Source of the DNA: Arthrobacter sp. H14
GTDB lineage: Bacteria; Actinomycetota; Actinomycetes; Actinomycetales; Micrococcaceae
Assembly: GCF_000520495.1 (NCBI RefSeq)
Contig: NZ_KI914666.1
Location: forward strand, 79,239 to 129,991
Direction: 5' to 3'
DNA length: 50,753 nucleotides
Under the pieces are notes generated by a model, which worked only from the letters and a program-made list of their open reading frames with translations, ran no database searches and had not been told where the DNA came from. The position numbers were made by a program, and so were the translations under genes. Every line of letters starts with the position of its first letter. Positions within the stretch are counted from its first letter, which is position 1. Of the stretch, positions 45,015 to 50,753 are shown piece by piece.

Positions 45015-46778
45015 GTGCTGCGCACACACGAGCTTGGATCATTACGGTCCGAACACATTGGACAGACTGTGACGCTGACCGGCTGGGTCGCACGGCGCCG
45101 CGATCATGGCGGGGTTGCGTTCCTGGACCTCCGCGATGCGTCCGGTGTGGCGCAGGTCGTGGTCCGCGAGGAGGAAGTCTTCCACTCGCTGCGTAACGAG
45201 TATGTCCTGCAGGTGACCGGCAGCGTGGAGAAGCGTCCCGCAGGCAACGAAAACACCTCGCTCGCCACTGGTGATATCGAAGTAATCGCCGAAACCGTGA
45301 AGGTGCTCAGCACCTCCGAGCCGCTCCCGTTCCAGATTGACGAGCATGTCGAGGTGGGCGAGGAAGCCAGGCTGAAGCACCGGTACCTGGACCTGCGCCG
45401 GCCTGGCCCCGCAGCAAACATCCGGCTGCGCAGCGAGGCCAACCGCGTGGCCCGCGAGCTGCTCCACGGAGTTGGCTATGTCGAAATAGAAACCCCGACG
45501 CTGACCCGCTCGACGCCGGAGGGCGCCAGGGACTTCGTCGTTCCCGCACGGCTGGCACCCGGCTCCTGGTACGCACTTCCGCAGTCTCCGCAGCTCTTTA
45601 AGCAGCTGCTGCAGGTCGGTGGGTTCGAGAAGTACTACCAGATTGCCCGCTGCTACCGGGATGAGGACTTCCGGGCGGACCGCCAGCCTGAGTTCACCCA
45701 GTTGGACATCGAAGCCAGTTTCGTCGAACAGGACGACATCATCGAGCTCGGCGAACAACTGATCAAGGCACTCTGGGCGCTGATCGGCGTCGAAATCAAG
45801 ACTCCCATCCAGCGGATGACGTACTGGGACGCCATGGCGCGGTACGGATCGGACAAGCCCGATCTGCGCTTCGGCCTGGAACTGTCCGAACTCACTGAAT
45901 TTTTCAAGGACACCACCTTCCGGGTCTTCCAGGCCCCGTATGTGGGAGCCGTCGTCATGCCCGGCGGTGGTTCGCAGCCGCGCCGCCAGCTTGACGCCTG
46001 GCAGGAGTGGGCGAAGCAGCGCGGGGCAAAGGGACTGGCCTACGTTCTGGTCGGCGAAGACGGTACTCTCTCCGGTCCAGTGGCCAAGAACCTTACCGAC
46101 GCCGAGCGAGCAGGGCTGGCTGACGCCGTCGGCGCGAAGGGTGGCGACTGCATCTTCTTTGCCGCCGGAGACATCGCCTCTTCGCGCGCACTGCTGGGTG
46201 CGGCACGGGTGGAAATCGGCCACCGCACCGGGCTGATCAATCCTGAGGACTGGGCCTTCGTCTGGATCGTGGACGCACCCATGTTTGAATCCGCGGAAAC
46301 GGCGGAAGCTTCGGGCGACGTCGCCATTGCCGGTGGGCAGTGGACCGCCGTGCACCACGCCTTCACTTCTCCCAAGCCGGAGTTCATGGACACCTTCGAG
46401 CAGGACCCCGAATCGGCACTGGCGTACGCCTACGACATTGTCTGCAACGGCAACGAGATTGGCGGCGGATCCATCCGTATCCACCAGCGGGATGTGCAGG
46501 AGCGCGTCTTTAAGGTGATGGGTCTGGGCGAGGAGGAAGCCGGGGAGAAGTTCGGCTTCCTGCTTGAGGGTTTCAAATACGGAGCACCGCCGCACGGCGG
46601 CATCGCTTTGGGCTGGGACCGGGTGGTTGCGCTGCTCGCCGGGGTGGATTCAATCCGCGATGTGATTGCCTTCCCGAAGTCCGGCGGTGGCTACGATCCG
46701 CTCACGGGCGCACCTGCCCCGATCACCGTGCAGCAGCGCAAGGAAGCCGGCGTTGATGCGAAGGCGGCGCAGGAATAG
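45015..46778 (+). CDS. aspS: Aspartyl-tRNA synthetase (bacterial type)
   Basis: 587 residues from GTG 45015, behind GAAGGGA. The N-terminal OB anticodon domain ([23 protein letters not shown]) is followed by class II motif 1, then [30 protein letters not shown] (motif 2), an inserted GAD domain, and [15 protein letters not shown] (motif 3). It may be non-discriminating and also make Asp-tRNA-Asn, as is usual where no asparaginyl-tRNA synthetase exists; sequence alone does not decide. Linked with hisS as in other actinobacteria. Confidence 0.96.
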
Positions 46779-47207
46779 CTACCCGTCGAACTTGGTAAAA
46801 GCCCTGATCGGCGGATCCATGTCGTTGGCTTCGCTGAATCCGAGGGACTCGTAAAAGGCATGCTGGCCCTCGTCGGCGTCGGTAATCAACACCTTCTGCC
46901 GGACATCTCCATAGTGGCCCAGGATGTTTTCCAACATTTGCCGGCCGAGGCCTGATCGCTGGTGCTCCGGGTCTACGAGGATGTCCTGGATGTAGCAGAT
47001 CGTCGCGTTGTCCGAGATGGCCCGCGCCAACCCGATCAACCGTCCATCCAGCCGTGCGGTGATGACGAAGGAGGATCCTCCGATCGCGGCAGCCAGTGAC
47101 TCGGGTGCTTTGGTGTACGCAGTCCAGCCAACAGCTTCGTAGAGGCGGATCAGATCATCCAGTGGTACGGAAGTGGCCGGGGCAAGCCGTATCCGGGAGT
47201 CTTTCAT
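46779..47207 (-). CDS. GNAT family N-acetyltransferase
   Basis: A 142-residue acetyltransferase with the acetyl-CoA pyrophosphate loop QRSGLGRQML (motif A), preceded by the ILVDPEHQ strand, and followed by DADEGQHAFYESLGF (motif B). The substrate is unknown; small GNATs of this type acetylate amines or peptides. No ribosome binding site; TATGCT on the minus strand ends 6 nt before the ATG. It converges directly with aspS, whose stop is the adjacent base. Confidence 0.88.
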   Translation of the reverse strand: MKDSRIRLAPATSVPLDDLIRLYEAVGWTAYTKAPESLAAAIGGSSFVITARLDGRLIGLARAISDNATICYIQDILVDPEHQRSGLGRQMLENILGHYGDVRQKVLITDADEGQHAFYESLGFSEANDMDPPIRAFTKFDG

Positions 47208-47213
47208 GGCATC

Positions 47214-47219
47214 AGCATA
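47214..47219 (-). promoter_or_regulatory. -10 hexamer TATGCT of the GNAT gene
   Basis: TATGCT on the minus strand is separated from ATG 47207 by exactly six bases (GATGCC), consistent with a leaderless mRNA. Confidence 0.45.
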
Positions 47220-47276
47220 CGCGCGCCTATGGTCATGGGGAATGGTCAGTTAGTTCCGCCGGGATAGTCAGCATGC

Positions 47277-47282
47277 TTAGAT
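47277..47282 (+). promoter_or_regulatory. Candidate -10 hexamer TTAGAT of the PKS operon
   Basis: TTAGAT ends six bases before ATG 47289, and no Shine-Dalgarno sequence is seen. It is a weaker -10 than the others but shares their spacing. Confidence 0.35.
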
Positions 47283-47288
47283 GAATAC

Positions 47289-48431
47289 ATGTCGGTTTTC
47301 CTGCGTGCCATTGAAACTTCCTTGCCGCCCACCGTGCTGGAGCAGTCAGCAACGAGGGACCGCTTCGCCTCCCAGCCGGGAATAACCCGGCTGGGAGGGC
47401 GGCTTCTGCACGCGGCCTTCGACCAGTCGGGGATCGACCGTCGCTACACGGTCATAGAGGGGTTGGATGCTGCCGACGACGACGGCAACGCCTCGGACTT
47501 CTACGAACCTGGCGAGGGGCGGCTCCTTATGCCCGGCACACGGGTGCGCAACGAGCTTTACATCGAAGCGGCGACCAAACTCTATGTCGACGCCGCTGCT
47601 AAGGTGCTGTCGGCGTCGGACGGGATAGAGCCGGAGGACATTACGCACGTTGTTACCGTCTCCTGCACCGGTTTTTACCAACCCGGACCGGATTACAAGA
47701 TCGTCCGGGCACTCGATCTGAATCCGCACGTGCAGCGCTACCATCTGGGCTTTATGGGCTGCTACGCATCCTTTCCTGCCTTGCGGGCGGCGAAGGCATT
47801 CTGCGAGGCCGAGCCCGACGCCGTAGTCCTCGTCGTCAGCGCCGAACTCTGTTCGCTGCATGTCCGTTCGTCGAACGACCCGGACCAGATTATTGCTTCT
47901 TCCGTATTCGGTGACGGCGCTGCGGCAGCTATCGTAACGGGACAGGAACCCGGGCCGGAGGCGACGGCGCTGCGGCTCGACCATTTCGAAACATCGCTGA
48001 CACCCGTCGGTGAAGATGACATGGCCTGGAAGATCGGCGATGAGGGCTTCGAAATGGTGTTGAGCAGTTATGTTCCCAAGATCATTGACGAGCACATCCG
48101 CGGTGCGCTGGAGCCGCTGTTGGCCCGTGAGCCCGAACTGGCAGAACGTCCGTATAAAGAGATCCAACGCTGGGCCATCCACCCCGGCGGCCGCAGCATC
48201 TTGGACAAGGTGGAATCCAAACTAGAGCTTCTCCCTGATCAGCTCACACCATCGCGGGAAACGCTGCGCCAATACGGGAACATGAGCAGTGCGACCATCC
48301 TGTTCGTGCTCAAGCACATCCTCGAAAGTTCTTCCACCGAATCGGAAGAGCGCGTCTGCGCCATGGCTTTTGGTCCAGGCTTGACGGTGGAAACAGCGTT
48401 GATGACCAAGGTATCGCCGGAGGCGCATTGA
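47289..48431 (+). CDS. Type III polyketide synthase
   Basis: A 380-residue thiolase-fold synthase. The catalytic triad is visible: Cys in LGFMGCYASFPALRAAKAF (about residue 158), His in WAIHPGGRSILDKVE, and Asn in YGNMSSATILFVLKH. The cyclisation-pocket loop GDGAAAAIVTG and the terminal AFGPGLTVETAL are typical. It condenses an acyl-CoA starter with malonyl units into an alkylresorcinol, alkylpyrone or similar phenol; which one cannot be read from sequence. The methyltransferase and monooxygenase genes that follow without a gap make a tailoring pathway likely. Confidence 0.93.
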   Translation: MSVFLRAIETSLPPTVLEQSATRDRFASQPGITRLGGRLLHAAFDQSGIDRRYTVIEGLDAADDDGNASDFYEPGEGRLLMPGTRVRNELYIEAATKLYVDAAAKVLSASDGIEPEDITHVVTVSCTGFYQPGPDYKIVRALDLNPHVQRYHLGFMGCYASFPALRAAKAFCEAEPDAVVLVVSAELCSLHVRSSNDPDQIIASSVFGDGAAAAIVTGQEPGPEATALRLDHFETSLTPVGEDDMAWKIGDEGFEMVLSSYVPKIIDEHIRGALEPLLAREPELAERPYKEIQRWAIHPGGRSILDKVESKLELLPDQLTPSRETLRQYGNMSSATILFVLKHILESSSTESEERVCAMAFGPGLTVETALMTKVSPEAH

Positions 48432-49171
48432 TGGCGCCTGCTCCGTGGCCTCCCCGGCTGGACCAACGGGTTATCAACGGGCAGGAGCGGATGGATGATC
48501 CCGCTGCAGACCCTGTAATGCTCAGCCGCACGTACCACCAGTTCAAATACGTCAATGCCGCGATCGCAGGCTGGCATCGGATCTACCGTTCCCGGATCCG
48601 GCCGGTGCTGCGCCGGGAACGGACCAACTCCATCGCCGATATCGGATCCGGCGGTGGAGACATCACGCGTGCCTTGGCTCACTGGGCACAGCGGGACGGC
48701 TTTCAGATCACCGTCCTTGGTGTCGATCCCGACGAGCGGGCGCACGCCTACGCCCTCGCACAACCCGCCGTCGACGGCGTTTCCTTCCGCACCGCCTATA
48801 GCCATGACCTGGTGCACGAGGGTGCGGCATTTGACATCGTCGTTTCCAACTTCATGCTGCACCACCTCACCAGCGTCGAGTTGCAGGCCCTGCTGGCCGA
48901 CAGCGAACGACTTTGCACGGCAAGGACCATCCACGCCGACATCGAGCGAAGCCGCTTGGCCTATGCATTGTTTTCGGCCGGAACTTCGCCGTTCTTCCAC
49001 AACTCGTTCATCCGTGAAGATGGCCTGACGTCAATTCGCCGCAGCTATACGCATTCTGAATTGACGGCGGAGGCACCGCAAGGCTGGCGTGTCGAGCTTC
49101 AAATCCCGTACCGGAATCTGCTGATTTTCGACGTCGGGCAGCGCCCCGGCGGCCCATCCGGAGACAGGTGA
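48431..49171 (+). CDS. Class I SAM-dependent methyltransferase in the PKS operon
   Basis: 246 residues from ATG 48431, whose A overlaps the PKS stop (TGATG), so translation is coupled. The SAM-binding motif I is SIADIGSGGGDITRALAHW; VLGVDPDERAHAYA is motif II; and FDIVVSNFMLHHL is the post-I/motif III region. A soluble UbiE/Coq-like methyltransferase, unlike the membrane ICMT-type enzyme of the Streptomyces srs pathway. Inferred to methylate the phenolic or quinone product. Confidence 0.88.
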   Translation: MAPAPWPPRLDQRVINGQERMDDPAADPVMLSRTYHQFKYVNAAIAGWHRIYRSRIRPVLRRERTNSIADIGSGGGDITRALAHWAQRDGFQITVLGVDPDERAHAYALAQPAVDGVSFRTAYSHDLVHEGAAFDIVVSNFMLHHLTSVELQALLADSERLCTARTIHADIERSRLAYALFSAGTSPFFHNSFIREDGLTSIRRSYTHSELTAEAPQGWRVELQIPYRNLLIFDVGQRPGGPSGDR

Positions 49172-49177
49172 CGGGAA

Positions 49178-50329
49178 GTGGCATCGAAGCTTCTGGATGC
49201 AGCGGTGGTCGGCGGAGGACCCGTCGGAGTCTATTTGGGAGCCCTGTTGGCCCACGGCGGACTCGATGTCCAGGTCCTGGAACGGCGGGCCGCTCCGGTG
49301 GGGCACTCCCGGGCAATCGGCATCCATCCGCCGGCACTGGAGTCGTTCGACCGCATCGGTGTCACCCCCTCCATCCTCGCCGAAGGCGTCAGAATCGACC
49401 GCGGATTCCTGCGAAGTGAGGGTCGTACTTTCGGCGGCTTGTCCTTCAACTCCGTATCTGACCGGCATCCCTATATAGTTTCGCTGCCGCAACACCGTAC
49501 CGAGTCACTGCTGGCCGCGCGGCTGGAGGCACTTCGTCCCGGTGCCTTACGCAGGGGAGTCGACGTCGAAGGGCTCAAGGATGAAGGTGGCTCCGTACGA
49601 CTGCGCGCGCATACCGCTTCCGGGACTGAAGAGGTAAGAGCCCGGATGGTTATCGGGGCCGACGGCGGCAACAGTTTTGTGCGCACCGCGGTGGGTATTG
49701 GCGTGCGTAGACACATGCACCGGGACACCTATTTGATGGGAGATTTCACCGATACCACGGAAGATGGCACCGCTGCCGTAATTTGGCTGGAGCCAGGCGG
49801 CGTCGTCGAATCGTTTCCCCTGCCAGGCCGATTGCGCCGCTGGGTGGTCCATCTGAACCGTCCAGCCCAGGAACCTACTGCCGAGGAACTTTCAGGCCTG
49901 ATCGAGGAGCGGACAGGAATTGCAGTGGATCCGGCGGGTAACACTATGATCAGTGGCTTCGGCGTACGGACCCAGTCCGCGGACCGGATGGTTGCGGCAC
50001 GAACAATCCTTGTTGGAGACGCGGCACACCAAGTCAGTCCCATCGGCGGGCAGGGGATGAACCTTGGCTGGCTCGATGCCGCCGCTTTGGCGCCCATCCT
50101 GATCCAAACCGCCCGGACTGGAGATACTGATGAGTCAGCCTTGGCACGCTTTGAACGGCGGCGGATGCGCTCTGCCGCTGTTGCGGCCAATATGGCCAGG
50201 ATCAATATGGCCATGGGCCGTCCCGTGAGCGGTTTTGGCCTTCGGGCCCGTGACCTGTTGCTTCAAGCCCTGCTGACGCGTCCCGTTCGCGGAGTTCTCG
50301 CCCGCGCGTACTCCATGCGATGGCTTTGA
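49178..50329 (+). CDS. FAD-dependent aromatic monooxygenase/oxidoreductase in the PKS operon
   Basis: A 383-residue flavoprotein. The Rossmann FAD motif VVGGGPVGVYLGALLAHGG is near the N-terminus, the DG motif is GADGGNSFVRTAVG, and the second FAD motif is LVGDAAHQVSPIGGQGMNLGW. This is the p-hydroxybenzoate-hydroxylase-like family. GTG 49178 lies 6 nt after the methyltransferase stop, behind GACGGGAA. In analogous srsABC-type operons the flavoprotein hydroxylates the ring to a hydroquinone; here that is inference. Confidence 0.88.
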   Translation: MASKLLDAAVVGGGPVGVYLGALLAHGGLDVQVLERRAAPVGHSRAIGIHPPALESFDRIGVTPSILAEGVRIDRGFLRSEGRTFGGLSFNSVSDRHPYIVSLPQHRTESLLAARLEALRPGALRRGVDVEGLKDEGGSVRLRAHTASGTEEVRARMVIGADGGNSFVRTAVGIGVRRHMHRDTYLMGDFTDTTEDGTAAVIWLEPGGVVESFPLPGRLRRWVVHLNRPAQEPTAEELSGLIEERTGIAVDPAGNTMISGFGVRTQSADRMVAARTILVGDAAHQVSPIGGQGMNLGWLDAAALAPILIQTARTGDTDESALARFERRRMRSAAVAANMARINMAMGRPVSGFGLRARDLLLQALLTRPVRGVLARAYSMRWL

Positions 50330-50488
50330 ACTTTCCCATCCTGAAGCCTCAGTTCCTCGAGCGGGTGGTCTTGTCCTCCACAGGGGCTGGGGTGGGGTTG
50401 GTTGTTCACATTGGTGGTTGGCCCATGGAGTGGTTGGGTTGGGGCCGGTAGTGTCGAATACATGTATTAGGTATCTGCTTAGCTGAAG
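50330..50488. other. Spacer before the transposase, G/T-rich, likely IS left end
   Basis: No gene is seen in this stretch. It is rich in GGGT/GGTT tracts (about 50385-50450), unlike the coding flanks, and contains the direct repeat TAGGTATCT/TAGTATCT near 50468-50496. The IS terminal repeat probably lies here, but with only one end in the window it cannot be defined. Confidence 0.35.
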
Positions 50489-50494
50489 TAGTAT
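50489..50494 (+). promoter_or_regulatory. -10 hexamer TAGTAT of the transposase gene
   Basis: TAGTAT ends six bases before ATG 50501, and no Shine-Dalgarno sequence is visible. Confidence 0.4.
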
Positions 50495-50500
50495 CTATTC

Positions 50501-50753
50501 ATGGAAGATCCGCAGCCAGCAACGCCGGTGGGCGGAGTCGATTATCCGGTGACCTTCGGGCAGTTTCAGGACTGGTTTTCCACCGATGAGGCCTGTTTGG
50601 ACTATTTGGCCAGACTGCGCTGGCCCGAAGGGTTCATCTGTCCCAAGTGTGGAAGTATCGACCATTGGCGCACGGGGGCCGGTCTGTGGATGTGCAAGGC
50701 CTGCACCCGTCGCACGTCAGTGACAGCTGGCACAATTTTCGCCCGGACCCGGA
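50501..50753 (+). mobile_element. IS1595-family transposase, 5' part (cut by the window end)
   Basis: 84 codons from ATG 50501 remain open at the window edge. The sequence shows FGQFQDWFSTDEACLDYL, then RWPEGFICPKCGS and WMCKACTRRTSVTAGTIF, which is the zinc ribbon (two CxxC pairs) and following segment of IS1595/ISXO2-like transposases. The catalytic domain lies outside the window, so intactness is unknown. It borders the PKS operon. Confidence 0.85.

Follow-up and report, generated by a model that had tools for sequence, protein, structure and literature searches.

A compact type III PKS, methyltransferase and flavoprotein operon in Arthrobacter sp. H14 with a putative alkyl-(hydro)quinone lipid product

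Three closely spaced genes in Arthrobacter sp. H14 encode a type III polyketide synthase (PKS), a methyltransferase (MT) and a flavoprotein, which raises the question of what they make together and which known operon they resemble most. They lie near the end of the window, by which we mean the whole stretch of DNA that was analysed (50,753 nucleotides). The genes are:

47289..48431, plus strand: type III PKS, probable alkylresorcinol synthase, 380 aa (Chal_sti_synt_N/C, Cys-His-Asn triad, fold model)
48431..49171, plus strand: class I SAM-dependent MT, 246 aa (NCBIfam NF004851, PRK06202)
49178..50329, plus strand: FAD_binding_3 flavoprotein monooxygenase, UbiH/aromatic-hydroxylase-like, 383 aa (PF01494)

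The PKS starts with ATG at 47289 and stops with TGA at 48429-48431. The MT starts with ATG at 48431, inside that stop codon, for a one-base overlap (TGATG), and ends at 49171; an alternative in-frame start, TTG at 48428, appears in the ORF listing too. After 6 nt the flavoprotein starts with GTG at 49178 and runs to 50329. The first-pass annotation had described the same coordinates, overlap and gap, which an ORF check bore out, and it had read the same three functions in the same compact layout, with which the Pfam and NCBIfam matches agree. A signal scan of 46700-50753 found no convincing promoter or terminator, with counts at the level of shuffled sequence, and no promoter-like sites on the plus strand. 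Because these signals are not above shuffles, the case for co-transcription is made from the overlap, the spacing and conservation. Two genes were noted upstream of the operon: one for a GNAT acetyltransferase, encoded on the opposite strand, and one that presumably encodes an aspartyl-tRNA synthetase. Just past the operon, positions 50501-50752 encode the first part of an IS1595-family transposase (zinc-ribbon domain, 57 bits), which is cut at the end of contig C93; an IS1595-type repeat probably caused the assembly break there.

The first-pass annotation had suggested comparing neighbouring genes in relatives. This was done with 80 loci fetched by PKS similarity, a sample that gauges gene linkage and not gene frequency. 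The MT and the flavoprotein lie downstream of the PKS on the same strand in 78 of the 80, which excludes a chance arrangement, and the two exceptions (L089 and L101) are at contig edges, 539 and 154 bases past the PKS. Gap lengths were taken from 67 of the 80 loci, those with three complete ORFs under naive start choice. The operon is common in Micrococcaceae and is not peculiar to the H14 genome: a PKS match was found in 22 of the 36 other genomes of the family that were sampled, and none in 14. The closest named locus is that of Arthrobacter castelli (PKS 75%, MT 59% and FAD 67% identity).

Some of these loci are irregular. Within the 78, the flavoprotein match of L048 and L072 spans 55 residues only, as if the gene were decaying, and strains H41 and Br18 have two PKS-MT loci each, one per strain with such a 55-residue match. 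Arthrobacter-like operons (L066 and L082, PKS 64-66% identical) were found in records titled Vibrio cholerae 35D and Acidobacteria bacterium G2_11, which are probably mislabelled records or contaminating contigs.

Loci with a single tailoring gene were also found. Among L005-L028 (24 loci, 22 from the same family and 2 from other families), both partners are present in 19, the MT is missing in L019 and L021, and the FAD gene is missing in L025-L027. Longer stretches around these five loci bear this out: L152 and L153 have a PKS-FAD pair with no MT labelled adjoining, and in L154-L156 none of the tested types of FAD gene is labelled next to the PKS-MT pair. With only two genes each, these variants show that either tailoring step is dispensable, and their gene content suggests two separable, independent modifications. 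L152-L156, which lost or never had the MT or the flavoprotein, may make simpler versions of the lipid.

The PKS matches Chal_sti_synt_N and Chal_sti_synt_C at 94 and 99 bits, above the curated cut-offs. All 36 rows of an alignment share its Cys158, His298 and Asn331, in keeping with the earlier claim that its catalytic residues are intact, and the triad, the Pfam scores and family-wide fold matches together make it a type III PKS. Its structure was predicted with AlphaFold2 (pLDDT 81.7, pTM 0.87), and the top PDB fold match of the model is PKS18, an enzyme for long chains, which suggests a long-chain tunnel. PKS18 is an alkylpyrone synthase and makes pyrones. Trp295 of the window PKS is taken to be the counterpart of Trp281 in ArsB, a protein outside the alignment. 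The role of ArsB Trp281 is treated in PMC6274091. The 36-row alignment has Trp at this place in the pyrone makers PKS18 and PKS11 too, which ruled out Trp295 as proof of resorcinol formation; at most it leans toward an aldol preference. The same alignment shows that Cys126 and His191 are common to the PKSs adjoining PRK06202 methyltransferases, while the srs-type rows have Val/Thr and Thr/Ser there.

PKS trees were made from the 36 rows and from 27 of them. The nine rows absent from the smaller tree are PKS18, Azospirillum, THN synthase, a paralogue and five Micrococcaceae, and they include the three longest. The window-type PKSs of Micrococcales and Deinococcus form one group in both trees, with support of 100/99 (36 rows) and 99/99 (27 rows). 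The window PKS is on the same side as those of Paludisphaera, Methylobacterium, Roseomonas and Psychrobacter, four rows that do not form one resolved group. Long branches were flagged for PKS18, Azospirillum, THN synthase, Psychrobacter and Paludisphaera, and the branching of the hid-like rows among themselves is left open for this reason.

The paralogue is a second type III PKS in the H14 genome. It is split across two contigs (L148, C155, 3-515, minus strand; L147, C25, 3-770) whose ends share 154 identical bases, and its two parts are 72% and 57% identical to the window PKS. No MT or FAD gene is visible adjoining it on these contigs. The tree puts it with the mainstream Arthrobacter PKSs rather than next to the window PKS, and it could conceivably be a stray contig from a different strain.

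The MT matches Methyltransf_11 and Methyltransf_25 (45 and 44 bits, above the curated cut-offs) and scores 302 bits against NF004851 (PRK06202), whose curated cut-off is 243. It is a soluble class I enzyme and not an ICMT, as the first-pass annotation had it. Foldseek matches of its AlphaFold2 model (pLDDT 94.2) are class I enzymes of both the C- and the O-methylating kinds, with TM of about 0.4-0.6, and no sequence relative was found among solved structures at E 0.01. Assigning its function from solved structures was dropped on these grounds, and since the fold matches include both kinds, the methyl position is left undecided. PRK06202 was found above the curated cut-off in 2 of 149 Actinomycetota genomes sampled phylum-wide and in none of 14 control genomes. 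The two are H14 and G009, and in the latter the MT is about 100 bases past the PKS match. The curated cut-off is the informative one here, as a search at E 0.001 was too permissive (138/149 genomes and 13/14 controls).

The flavoprotein matches PF01494 (FAD_binding_3) at 180 bits, above the curated cut-off, and has what we take to be the GxGxxG, DG (GADGGNSFVR) and GD (GDAAHQVSPIGGQG) motifs. Among solved structures, polyketide oxygenases and rifampin monooxygenase come closest to it, followed by VisC/UbiH-like proteins (UbiI/VisC-like) and phenol hydroxylases. The solved relatives presumably include PgaE, CabE and MtmOIV-like enzymes, which act on polycyclic polyketides. As a rule, FAD_binding_3 hydroxylases take a phenol as substrate. 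Against the same model the D. radiodurans flavoprotein scores 169 bits, the Streptomyces srs-type one (L151) 65, and those of Paludisphaera, Roseomonas and Methylobacterium 56, 37 and 29, and the Psychrobacter flavoprotein has no match at 0.001. Judged by sequence, then, the flavoprotein sets the window's version of the operon apart from both the srs-type and the planctomycetal or hid-like versions. The DG motif is found in 21 of 66 Micrococcaceae flavoproteins with a strict pattern and in 65 of 66 with a relaxed one (3 short ORFs omitted). As evidence against the srs type it was dropped, since the Streptomyces srs-type flavoprotein also has it.

The same trio in the same order is present on Deinococcus megaplasmids, as found by tblastn of plasmids in D. 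radiodurans (L134) and D. psychrotolerans (L135). Although they belong to a different phylum, these loci have the same three subfamilies as the window, with 55-60% identity for the PKS, 48-50% for the MT and 47-51% for the FAD protein. A literature search of titles and abstract openings found no product for the Deinococcus PKS-MT-FAD operon. More distant trios have the PKS-MT-FAD order in Methylobacterium and Roseomonas, the FAD and MT genes on the opposite strand in Psychrobacter, and the order MT-FAD-PKS in the planctomycete Paludisphaera. PRK06202 is the top NCBIfam model of the MT in D. radiodurans (334 bits), Paludisphaera (232), Methylobacterium (143), Roseomonas (136) and Psychrobacter (108), and among the six MTs compared only those of the window and D. 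radiodurans pass its cut-off. In the trees, the two Deinococcus PKSs group with the PKS of another Micrococcales family (L025, G044), with support of 95/93 (36 rows) and 94/84 (27 rows), and this grouping hints at inter-phylum transfer.

How might the three enzymes work together? The PKS would load a long-chain fatty acyl thioester, extend it with three malonyl-CoA, perhaps one of them methylmalonyl-CoA, and close the tetraketide by aldol condensation to give a 5-alkylresorcinol. The FAD_binding_3 monooxygenase would hydroxylate the ring at the expense of NAD(P)H and O2, and the resulting hydroxyhydroquinone would turn easily into a quinone. The PRK06202-type MT would add one methyl, to a ring carbon or a phenolic oxygen, and either the hydroxylation or the methylation could come before the other. 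The expected product is a hydroquinone or quinone that dissolves in the membrane and bears an alkyl chain and a methyl or methoxy group. We infer the alkylresorcinol, its ring hydroxylation and its single methylation from analogy with the planctomycetal, hierridin and srs/pkq operons. The data show the enzyme families, the gene layout, its conservation and the kinship of the proteins; the starter length, a resorcinol in preference to a pyrone, the methyl position and the redox role are predictions. For this path from acyl thioester to a ring-hydroxylated, methylated alkyl-(hydro)quinone lipid, we see the chances as about even.

The PKS could instead make alkyl-alpha-pyrones which the MT would O-methylate, with the monooxygenase hydroxylating the pyrone or the chain, and no quinone would form. 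The top fold match is the alkylpyrone synthase PKS18, and Trp at 295 is compatible with such a product, as PKS18 and PKS11 have it too. However, FAD_binding_3 hydroxylases generally act on a phenol. In the related three-gene operon of planctomycetes, the PKSs are also reported to have made alkylresorcinols (PMC10896814), and pyrones seem unlikely. A PKS with a short or malonyl starter might give a small aromatic or naphthol (THN- or orsellinate-like), which hydroxylation and methylation would turn into a soluble pigment. Cys126 is equal to the cysteine of THN synthase at the same place, and some of the closest solved flavoprotein relatives work on polycyclic polyketides. But residue 191 is His in the window PKS and Cys in THN synthase, and in the tree THN synthase is on the srs side, away from the window PKS, though its long branch calls for caution; we regard a soluble pigment as quite unlikely. 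That the three genes are mere neighbours with no common product is barely credible: the signals no better than shuffles and the lone PKS copy in the same genome would fit it, but not the fact that they stay together in 78 of 80 loci and again in another phylum.

The first-pass annotation had likened the operon to srsABC. This stands as far as the two seem to work alike: srsABC of Streptomyces griseus and pkqABC of Mycobacterium smegmatis have a PKS, a methyltransferase and a flavoprotein in the same order, and the alkyl or polyketide quinones from such operons are described as electron carriers in Streptomyces and mycobacteria (PMC9927152). It does not extend to the PKS, which is outside the srs-type group, or to the flavoprotein, which is of a different subfamily. 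A Streptomyces plasmid and other families within the same order carry loci of the srs kind. Those compared here (L151, L144, L141) differ from the window in their ICMT (shown by Pfam in Streptomyces L151 and in L142), a reductase-like flavoprotein, another PKS group and an adjoining UbiA gene (a Pfam match in L151). The srs group of the trees consists of L151, L144 and PKS11, without SrsA and PkqA themselves, and the window PKS is split from it with support of 100/99 (36 rows) and 100/100 (27 rows). The window flavoprotein is 28% identical to that of L151 (E 3e-6) and stands apart from the Streptomyces and Paludisphaera types alike, which are more like each other than either is like it; the top NCBIfam model of both the Paludisphaera flavoprotein and a stretch of the L144 one is a geranylgeranyl-reductase family. 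An srsABC assignment was ruled out by the PKS group, the non-ICMT MT and the flavoprotein subfamily, and it is very improbable that the operon belongs to srsABC/pkqABC by descent, despite the shared activities and gene order.

The alkyl-(hydro)quinone reading is a concrete prediction and easy to test. The three genes can be tried in one expression experiment, and the natural loci with one tailoring gene let each step be checked apart. The enzymes come from known families, with no unusual mechanism shown. This kind of operon is already known, and the PRK06202 MT with a UbiH/aromatic-hydroxylase-like flavoprotein is a variant of it common to Micrococcaceae and Deinococcus. A literature search of titles and abstract openings for Arthrobacter and Deinococcus found no earlier description of this combination. 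Many genomes of this soil family have been sequenced and the operon is common among them, yet in a genome paper on the related genus Pseudarthrobacter the type III PKS cluster is reported to resemble no known cluster (PMC12025171). If the product is indeed a redox quinone, polyketide quinones would reach beyond mycobacteria and Streptomyces to Micrococcaceae and Deinococcus by way of a different hydroxylase. More speculatively, and in our view doubtfully, Micrococcaceae and Deinococcus would have in common a third operon version, with a UbiH-like aromatic hydroxylase replacing the reductase-like flavoprotein, for a dedicated lipid quinone. That quinone would carry electrons in an auxiliary role or act as a membrane antioxidant when cells face desiccation, oxidative stress or low oxygen, and would correspond to the mycobacterial and Streptomyces polyketide quinones.

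The planctomycetal alkylresorcinol operon and the cyanobacterial hidABC are closer published comparisons than srsABC, and the former is the firmest analogy for a possible mechanism. The planctomycetal operon of Gimesia maris and Rhodopirellula baltica has the same three gene functions as the window. Paludisphaera borealis (L138), which has the gene order of that operon and a PRK06202 MT, was used as a stand-in. Its PKS is 39% identical to the window PKS and has the same Cys126/His191 pair, and the best family of its MT is PRK06202, just below the cut-off. It differs in its MT-FAD-PKS order and in its geranylgeranyl-reductase-like flavoprotein, which matches that of the window over 50 residues only (36%, E 0.003). 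In C. glutamicum, planctomycetal PKSs are reported to give 5-pentadecyl- and 5-heptadecylresorcinol from C16 and C18 starters, and with the G. maris tailoring genes added, the host made a methylated resorcinol, presumably with the methyl on carbon (PMC10896814). For the oxidoreductase, which is of a different subfamily from that of the window, the same paper's account gives no defined activity and leaves the role open. The hierridin operon hidABC, likened here by its description and not by the Hid protein sequences, also combines one type III PKS with a methyltransferase and an oxidoreductase, and the order hidC>hidA>hidB is known among hierridin-like clusters (PMC8086630). According to PMC10896814, HidA O-methylates both hydroxyls, of which the window MT gives no sign. 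The MT family would fit hidABC, but the flavoprotein rules out plain membership.
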